This document shows positions 6,045-39,146 of a stretch of DNA of 39,146 nucleotides, one piece after another (the first letter of the stretch is position 1; every line of letters starts with the position of its first letter). The DNA is taken from NCBI GenBank assembly GCA_028286915.1, contig JAQBQQ010000045.1:1-39146 (forward strand). Reading direction: 5' to 3'. Source of the stretch: Candidatus Peribacteria bacterium (GTDB lineage Bacteria > Patescibacteriota > Gracilibacteria > Peribacterales > Peribacteraceae). Below the pieces are notes generated by a model. The model did no database searches and was not told the DNA's origin. It saw only the letters and a list, made by a program, of their open reading frames with translations. Made by a program: the position numbers and the translations under genes.

Positions 6045-6827
6045 CTACGCTGCAATACGAAGGTACTGCGTCACGTTTGCGTCACCCAGATATTGTTTCA
6101 CTGTCAGATTCTGATCCTTCACAAAGGACTGGGAGATCAATGAATTTTCCTCGCGGAACTTCCTCTCTTTGCCCTGCATGATCTTTTCCATAATTTCGGC
6201 AGGCTTTTTATCGTCTTTCATCTGCTCGTCCCAGATAGTGTGCTCGCGTTCCACGGCGGCAGCGGGTACATCTTCCGGCTTCACGTACTGCGGGTTCATG
6301 GCGGCGGCATGCATGGCGACATCTTTGGCAAGGTCGGCTGAGCCGTCTTTATCCAGGCCGACTACCACGCCGATCTTGCGGTTGCTGTGGACGTATGTGC
6401 CCACGGACTTGGCGCTTACTTCGTGAATATCTTCGACAGAAATGGAAATATGTTCGGCAAGCTTCTGTACGATATCGGCTATCTTTGGTTCCATGGTAGA
6501 TACGGCTGCCTCTTTGCCGTCGGCCAGAATGTGGTCAACAATGCCGCGGCCGAAGTTGAGGAAGTCATCGGAACGGGCTACGAAGTCCGTTTCGCAACGG
6601 ATAAGAACGAGGGCGGCTTTCACGCCGTCTTCGGCAACGAAAATAGCGCCTTCATGCTGCTCGCGGTCGGCCTTTTTAACGGCGCCGGCAATCCCTTTTT
6701 TGCGAAGAATATCGATGGCTGCTTCCTGGTCGCCATTGGCTTCTTCCAGTGCCTGCTTACAGGCCAGAATACTTACGCCGGTTCGTGCGCGGAGGGCGGC
6801 AACATCGGCAGCGGATACGGGGGACAT
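6045..6827 (-). CDS. tsf: Elongation factor Ts
   Basis: The 260-aa protein is EF-Ts, which exchanges GDP for GTP on EF-Tu during translation. It has the N-terminal UBA-like segment (LRARTGVSILACKQALEEA, residues 12-30, where most bacteria have an Asp before the Cys). The CETDFVAR core motif follows near residue 78 (preceded by Arg rather than the usual Asn), then the HSNRKIGVVVGL dimerisation core and AMHAAAMNPQYV. The length is close to typical. It lies 126 bp downstream of rpsB, the classic rpsB-tsf order, but a repeat-rich hairpin separates the two. A possible TACTATACT -10 lies between the hairpin and the start. No Shine-Dalgarno is seen before ATG 6827. Confidence 0.96.
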   Translation of the reverse strand: MSPVSAADVAALRARTGVSILACKQALEEANGDQEAAIDILRKKGIAGAVKKADREQHEGAIFVAEDGVKAALVLIRCETDFVARSDDFLNFGRGIVDHILADGKEAAVSTMEPKIADIVQKLAEHISISVEDIHEVSAKSVGTYVHSNRKIGVVVGLDKDGSADLAKDVAMHAAAMNPQYVKPEDVPAAAVEREHTIWDEQMKDDKKPAEIMEKIMQGKERKFREENSLISQSFVKDQNLTVKQYLGDANVTQYLRIAA

Positions 6828-38168: not shown

Positions 38169-39146
38169 ATGACCAAAGACTTTAATCCGATACCAGTTGA
38201 ACAGAAATGGCAGAAAAAATGGGAGGAGGCCGGTGTGCATCTCACCAACCTGGCGGAAGCACAAGACCCTTTTTATGCCATGGTCATGTTTCCGTACCCC
38301 AGCGGTGACAAGCTACATGTGGGACACTGGTATAACTTTGCACCGGCGGACAGTTTTGCCCGGTACCAGCGCATGCTTGGGAAAGACGTCTTTGAACCTA
38401 TGGGATTTGATGCGTTTGGCCTGCCCGCTGAAAACTACGCTATTAAAACCGGTATTCACCCGAATGAATCCATCAAAGCCAATGTACTGACCATGATTGA
38501 ACAATTGAAACGCATGGGTTGTATGTATGATTGGGATAAGACACTGAATACGAGCCAGCCGGAATACTATCAATGGACGCAGTGGCTGTTTTTGCAGATG
38601 TTTAAAAACGGACTGTCATACAAGAAGCTGGGTAATGTGAACTGGTGTCCCAAGGACCAGACTGTTTTGGCAAACGAACAAGTGACTGATGGCAAATGTG
38701 AACGTTGCGGAACGGATGTTATCCAAAAGCCGCTGGAGCAGTGGTATTGGAAGATTACCCAGTATGCAGACAGATTGATTGATGGTCTGGCTGATCTCGA
38801 CTGGCCGAACAAAACGAAGATTATGCAGACGAACTGGATTGGACGGAGCGAAGGGGCGGAGATTGAGTTTAATTTGAATATTGCTCGTGGTAGCCGGGGA
38901 ATTAATTCCCCGGCTACCAGATGCGTGCATTTGGTTTTAACGCCTAAAAACCGTAGTGAATTTTTTGAAGATGAAACAGAGGCAAGATCTATTCTGCGCA
39001 TTCTGGATTCTGTTGCCAGAAGACATGATATAGTTATTCATGAAGCTGCTGCTATGAATGGGCATGTTCATCTATTAATAAGCTTTGATCGTTCTCGTGA
39101 TTTAGGAACGGATATTGTAAAAAAACTAAAAGGAGCGAGTGCCAGA
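38169..39146 (+). CDS. leuS: Leucyl-tRNA synthetase with in-frame transposase-like insertion, 3' end beyond window
   Basis: Residues 1-238 are typical LeuRS: YPSGDKLHVGHW with the HVGH (HIGH) site at 50-53, GFDAFGLPAENYAIK, the zinc-type segment CPKDQTVLANEQ...CERC, EQWYWKITQYADRL and TNWIGRSEGAEIEF, which leads into the CP1 editing domain. At about residue 239, where the editing domain should continue, the frame stays open through a 32-bp palindrome. It then codes for an IS200/REP-type transposase domain (HLVLTPKNRSEFF...NGHVHLLISF...KKLKGASAR) to the window edge. No stop occurs in 326 codons. Whether LeuRS sequence resumes cannot be seen. If this is not a chimera, editing must be lost, relocated or interrupted by an intact domain insertion. 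Confidence 0.9.
   Translation, partial: MTKDFNPIPVEQKWQKKWEEAGVHLTNLAEAQDPFYAMVMFPYPSGDKLHVGHWYNFAPADSFARYQRMLGKDVFEPMGFDAFGLPAENYAIKTGIHPNESIKANVLTMIEQLKRMGCMYDWDKTLNTSQPEYYQWTQWLFLQMFKNGLSYKKLGNVNWCPKDQTVLANEQVTDGKCERCGTDVIQKPLEQWYWKITQYADRLIDGLADLDWPNKTKIMQTNWIGRSEGAEIEFNLNIARGSRGINSPATRCVHLVLTPKNRSEFFEDETEARSILRILDSVARRHDIVIHEAAAMNGHVHLLISFDRSRDLGTDIVKKLKGASAR
38888..38919 (+). repeat. Perfect 32-bp palindrome at the left edge of the leuS insertion
   Basis: GGTAGCCGGGGAATT and its exact reverse complement abut at 38903/38904, extended by one T-A pair on the outside. It is translated in frame as part of the leuS frame (about residues 240-251, GSRGINSPAT). REP/IS200 ends are recognised as such hairpins in single-stranded DNA. 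Confidence 0.95.
38888..39146 (+). mobile_element. IS200/REP-associated (Y1, HUH) transposase domain inside leuS, partial
   Basis: After the palindrome the frame encodes CVHLVLTPKNRSEFFEDETE, then AMNGHVHLLISFDRS and GTDIVKKLKGASAR. This order (HLxLxxKNRxxxF, later HVH followed by LLI, then KxLKGxSxR) is that of TnpA/TnpA-REP single-strand transposases; His299 and His301 would be the HUH pair. The catalytic Tyr would lie beyond the window. There is no ATG of its own before the domain core (a GTG at 38925 is possible). The DNA is more AT-rich than the leuS part before it. Confidence 0.8.

Follow-up and report, generated by a model that had tools for sequence, protein, structure and literature searches.

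A Y1 transposase domain in frame within the leucyl-tRNA synthetase of Candidatus Peribacteria, a probable RAYT-like domain housed in an essential enzyme

RAYT/REP systems are already known (PMC2817692, PMC6006769, PMC8049555), and the combination of a TnpA-REP or RAYT transposase with its REPs has been termed the REPtron (PMC2817692, PMC6006769, PMC3733652). RAYTs have been described as stand-alone single-copy genes, and the persistence of both RAYTs and REPs is an open question (PMC8049555). REPs inside genes are known as well; in such intragenic REPs and in the Rickettsia palindromic elements, a palindrome is translated in frame into a protein segment that is tolerated (PMC3733652). In the open-access papers searched, we found no description of a Y1 or other transposase domain within a synthetase, and the synthetase-borne niche of the transposase described below may itself be new.

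The stretch of DNA that was analysed (the window; 39,146 nucleotides) is the entire contig C31 of a Candidatus Peribacteria genome (G000; 1.43 Mb in 48 contigs). Its final ORF, on the forward strand at 38169-39146, is leuS; its 978 bases (326 x 3) are open to the last base, and since the window is the whole contig, the frame runs off the contig end. The N-terminal part of leuS (38169..38887) encodes the catalytic core, the zinc/CP1 entry and the first strand of the CP1 hairpin (WIGRSEGAEIEFNL), with the HVGH motif of the catalytic core at 38316-38327 and WIGRSEG at 38835-38855; it is recovered by TIGR00396 (positions 2-234, E 1e-103) and also by PF00133. At the LeuRS/Y1 junction lies a perfect REP-like palindrome of 32 nt (TGGTAGCCGGGGAATT/AATTCCCCGGCTACCA; 38888-38919), an inverted repeat that is read in frame as part of a linker. 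It is followed on the same strand by the N-terminal 76 residues of a Y1 (HUH) transposase domain (38919..39146; positions 1-76 of our A1 profile; PF01797 match with E 1.8e-11 starting at 38925), which includes the HUH motif HVH at 39063-39071 and is cut by the contig end directly after KLKGASAR (39123-39146), encoded by the last codons of C31. The presence of PF01797 and TIGR00396 matches in one ORF bears out the claim of an earlier note, made from the letters alone, that such a domain enters LeuRS in frame at the start of CP1.

The remainder of leuS is found on contig C35 of the same genome (locus L055), on the reverse strand from position 6485 downwards, as a frame of 627 aa whose first codon directly continues C31 ('...KLKGASAR' followed by 'EYLKKF...'). 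This frame passes in order through the rest of Y1 (EYLKKF...HLWGEG...YIQQNP, with the catalytic Tyr in YIQQNP), TTRPDT, the editing domain, KMSKS, the C-terminus and a stop; the earlier note had proposed looking for editing-domain sequence such as TTRPDT, and for KMSKS, beyond the transposase. Compared with homologues, the junction has zero residues missing and zero repeated; the contigs do not overlap, and it is from this homology that we infer them to be parts of one gene. The C35 part alone, scored with its neighbours, reaches 624.2 bits on TIGR00396, above the cut-off of 548.4 bits, and the gene has the features of a bacterial LeuRS, namely HIGH, the CP1 editing domain, KMSKS and the anticodon-binding domain, with PF13603 and PF08264 detected in homologues. 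Only one leuS was found in G000: its other synthetase ORFs (1484, 945 and 525 aa) match LeuRS weakly, the first being IleRS and the other two probably ValRS and MetRS. Of the options raised in the earlier note, a fusion replacing editing is not supported, the editing domain continuing in frame after Y1, and a recent disruption backed by a second copy is rejected, given the single leuS and the same junction in nine relatives.

The insert occupies the beta-hairpin at the start of CP1, at positions 234 to 239 of the TIGR00396 model. The uninserted site in G027 reads WIGKKHGINITYEVEGTQEKIVCFTTRPDT, and the inserted one in G083 reads ...YEVEGT, the insert, and then TVTCFTTRPDT; the same empty and occupied states of the hairpin are seen in the pairs G019/G079 and G028/G010. 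The inserted material consists of the linker plus Y1 only. A single-sequence AlphaFold2 model (mean pLDDT 36.8) was replaced by one built from an alignment of 44 LeuRS of these loci (mean pLDDT 83, pTM 0.76), which predicts a folded Y1 domain (residues ~276-400) within an intact LeuRS. In this model the REP-encoded linker (247-275) is disordered, and the hairpin strands (228-242 and 411-418) flank the linker and Y1. The best PDB matches of the model are bacterial LeuRS; among solved structures, those closest to Y1 in sequence belong to IS200/IS605-type transposases.

A search with profile A1 recovered the same Y1 clade in 10 of the 74 species and 9 of the 40 genera of the family, in the same hairpin of the CP1 editing domain. 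The genomes bearing it are independent Ca. Peribacteria/Peregrinibacteria assemblies from several separate studies, each with a single leuS, and in 8 of the 10 the fused gene is a single ORF of 974-1071 aa on one contig. The exceptions are G000, with its contig end, and G072 (L167, reverse strand), where the LeuRS N-terminal part and the Y1-plus-C-terminal part are in different frames; the break falls close to six consecutive A within the linker that the REP encodes and could reflect sequencing error, decay or slippage. Overall, 13 of 14 Y1 inserts are free of frame breaks, and HxH and Tyr are intact in every aligned insert of LeuRS and IleRS. The resumption of the editing domain, the presence of KMSKS, the single leuS and the recurrence of the architecture in nine other genomes, the comparison that the earlier note had suggested, all support its view of a tolerated in-frame domain.

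All members of the A1 clade in the family are inside LeuRS, and among 353 genomes of the class we found no stand-alone protein of this clade, the nearest stand-alone Y1 matching with E 9.6e-18. When the wider profile A3 was run on a sample of 380 genomes of the phylum, the listed Y1 matches in ORFs longer than 300 aa were all in synthetases. Diverged Y1 domains occur in the same LeuRS hairpin in G041 (family f7) and in G324 and G329 (family f6), and in G041 the IleRS, too, has a Y1 in its CP1 region, where it occupies another loop than in LeuRS. The Y1-bearing synthetases of both kinds span 950-1311 aa. Relatives on viral contigs were not found. Separately, the leuS contig G060:C53 (L153) ends exactly at the insertion hairpin, and this assembly break may conceal another insert.

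The earlier note had overlooked that the junction holds a REP palindrome with dispersed copies, and it is this palindrome and its dispersal that identify the Y1 domain as RAYT-like. One or more perfect palindromes are present in nearly all inserts; those of the home family have them in the linker, and those of f6 and f7 inside the Y1 domain. They are seen only 5' of Y1 or within it, and no 3' flanking REP was seen. In leuS loci that for the most part lack an insert, 120,757 bases held a single palindrome with arms of 9 or more. The 74 family genomes were scanned with a REP pattern tolerating up to one mismatch, exact matches being counted. The exact pattern is present outside leuS in 8 of the 10 Y1-bearing genomes versus 1 of the 64 that lack Y1 (Fisher p 2.6e-8, a value that ignores the relatedness of the genomes); in independent pairs, Y1 and REP go together in 5-6 of 7 and oppositely in 0 (median p 0.06). 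The copies outside leuS range from 1 to 11 per genome (11 in G000, about 10 in G021 and 3 in G010), and classic REP genomes hold over 100. The strict pattern is absent from G076 and G079, whose own palindromes fall outside it, and has 3 copies in G067, which lacks Y1. The dispersed stem is often identical to the one carried by leuS in the same genome (G000, G010, G030 and G035, and nearly so G083), and the dispersed palindromes are mostly outside long ORFs, i.e., mainly intergenic. The association of Y1 with REPs recurs outside the home family in G041, which has ten exact 26-nt dyads, two of them within LeuRS and IleRS; dyads of this type were not found in G053, G040 and G052. The canonical REP guide is GTAG/GTGG; here, GTAG stands 5' of the hairpin in G000, G079 and G072, and GTTAG or GTTAA, with which most of the palindromes begin, in others. 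Inspection by eye also showed that the stand-alone Y1 genes of G000 are adjoined by other palindromes.

The features shared with TnpA-REP/RAYT are thus the Y1 HUH core with HxH and one Tyr (in the form Y-I-x-x-N-P), palindromes beside the transposase in most members, and dispersed, mainly extragenic copies, both in the family and in G041. Unlike a RAYT, the transposase is not a gene of its own but a domain of LeuRS or IleRS, its REP is translated, no 3' REP was seen and the REP copies are few. Being a domain of a synthetase of 950-1311 aa, it would work like a RAYT but is not an ordinary RAYT gene. Against the curated cut-off of 80 bits for REP_Tyr_transpos, the Y1 of the G041 IleRS scores 88.5, and those of G030, G000 and the G041 LeuRS score 61.8, 50.1 and 35.6, respectively; the G000 domain reaches 57.1 on the NCBIfam IS200 model, just above its cut-off of 55. 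The IS200/IS605 TnpA proteins (ISDra2, IS608), besides being the nearest solved relatives, share the KLKGASAR motif. The domain differs from an insertion sequence of that type: it has N at Y+4 instead of Q (YIQxNP), no recognised IS ends (LE/RE), no tnpB and no stand-alone ORF, and its REP-like palindromes are on one side of Y1 only. In being translated in frame, the palindromes resemble the intragenic REPs and Rickettsia palindromic elements, which, in contrast, carry no transposase domain.

With Y1 in frame in leuS and matching palindromes scattered through the genome, an enzyme of a mobile element appears to live in an indispensable gene. We consider it likely that this is a RAYT-like Y1 domain housed in LeuRS and acting on REPs in trans, its catalytic activity and route of spread being inferred. 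On this account, a single polypeptide would combine a working LeuRS with a complete Y1 HUH domain in a surface beta-hairpin loop of CP1, the flexible linker ahead of Y1 being the translation of its own REP palindrome(s). Y1 would be translated together with LeuRS, fold independently, and bind and cut the palindromes as single-stranded hairpins through HUH/Tyr chemistry, with the resulting hairpin cutting potentially dispersing REPs in trans. The essential host gene would provide constant expression and make imprecise deletion of Y1 lethal. New lineages might be reached via the leuS locus, by recombination or by targeted insertion at the hairpin, with frequent loss afterwards. Such a domain would offer a direct answer to the question of RAYT persistence, in the form of loss-proofing by a host gene, and predicts that one polypeptide both charges tRNA(Leu) and cuts REP hairpins. 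It would further show that transposases can fill a niche at the protein level which has until now been linked with inteins. Counting against it are the low REP copy numbers, the failure of the strict pattern to match in G076 and G079, the REPs of the Y1-lacking G067, the GTTAG/GTTAA starts, the frame break of G072 and the contig split of G000.

Y1 presence is scattered, with sister species differing, and on the LeuRS core tree it entails 9 changes, at least 7 of them forced by well-supported branches; a single clade of all Y1 carriers is rejected on this tree. The CP1 domain exists in deeply different types, four of which contain Y1. Y1 identity is 0.56 between and 0.55 within CP1 types, while CP1 identity falls from 0.64 to 0.38, which points to separate histories of Y1 and its host domain, and no correlation of Y1 divergence with that of the LeuRS core or CP1 was found. 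Either Y1 has come repeatedly to a single site or CP1 has been exchanged around it, and the data fit both. A more far-reaching proposal is a new lifestyle of mobile elements, in which a transposase has colonised the editing domains of essential class I synthetases, namely LeuRS and, in a different position, IleRS. It would stay there permanently as part of the open frame and pass from allele to allele at one fixed position with no splicing involved, the host enzyme serving as both expression platform and deletion insurance; we advance this tentatively, as somewhat less than an even chance.

Alternatively, the insertion might be ancestral and vertically inherited with many precise losses, Y1 itself being immobile, a scenario that concerns history alone and is compatible with RAYT function. 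The use of the same hairpin by all carriers, the presence of Y1 in both members of the closest pair (G002/G076) and at least one apparent loss, in G067, which lies near the Y1-bearing G035 and has REPs, would suit it. We nevertheless regard it as rather unlikely in view of the level identity of Y1 across editing-domain types, its independence from core and CP1 divergence and the number of changes on the core tree, even though these would still be compatible with ancestral presence followed by recombination around Y1.

Less probable still is that LeuRS has recruited Y1 as a regulatory domain that mobilises nothing, e.g., one binding the REP hairpin of its own mRNA or DNA to control leuS. In the G002/G076 pair, the only one used because distant pairs are saturated, Y1 shows a dN/dS of about 0.23-0.32, indicative of purifying selection; this would agree with such a role, as it does with the RAYT-like reading, and so would the location of the REP within the leuS mRNA and the other enzymatic domains in class I synthetases of these bacteria, which make accessory-domain acquisition appear common. 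Yet a recruited regulator accounts poorly for patchy presence among sister species, for the retention of every transposase catalytic residue and for the dispersal of matching palindromes in mainly intergenic positions.

The earlier note had also likened the arrangement to an intein. The likeness holds insofar as both are in-frame parasite domains of a conserved essential enzyme, patchily distributed and found at the same site in diverged alleles. In-frame insertion into such an enzyme at one site in diverged alleles could also be expected of a self-splicing element, whether an intein or an IStron-like intron enclosing a Y1 ORF, that is excised from the protein or RNA. Homing would be conjecture, and the likeness stops at splicing, for which no signal was seen: no intein splicing domain (Hint) was matched by Pfam in five full proteins, no intein-like ends were apparent by eye, and Rfam gave no match to the ribozyme core of a group I/II intron or of an IStron in four loci, including insert-bearing ones. 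As only linker and Y1 are inserted and the frame is almost always open, self-splicing is very improbable; unlike in inteins, the domain would remain in a permissive loop of the mature enzyme, and its nuclease is of the transposase type rather than a homing endonuclease. Finally, the contig end inside Y1 and the G072 frame break might evoke an assembly chimera, such as a false join at 38888, or a recent disruptive insertion, but nine further genomes from different studies share the junction, and in eight of these the gene is uninterrupted from end to end on a single contig; this recurrence, the single leuS of each and the C31/C35 continuity refute this for the family and leave it with a negligible likelihood.

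In family f1 (L055-L168), the CP1 types of LeuRS are marked by TTRPDTLFG, TTRPDTNFG, TTRVDTLFS or, replacing the T-rich motif, YDSIPQT; the distribution of these types departs from the LeuRS core tree and suggests that editing domains have been swapped repeatedly. Domain insertions seem to be frequent in the class I synthetases of these bacteria. In this family, IleRS measures ~1480 aa and has a tandem pair of histidine-phosphatase (PF00300) stretches in frame within its catalytic domain, as matched in G000 (L224:912-5363, contig C1) and seen by eye in G002 (L225, G002:C10). In other families, the LeuRS of G036 (L068:1908-4913) and G052 (L069:1859-5116) have an in-frame serine hydrolase (PF06821), and that of G042 (L066:1018-4326) has two NUDIX stretches in frame. 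On a smaller scale, short repeat-like segments are in frame in the LeuRS loops of L168 (G008), L055, L058 and L071, for instance SSRTITG twice in G008 and KNQKPKTKNQK in the genome of the window.
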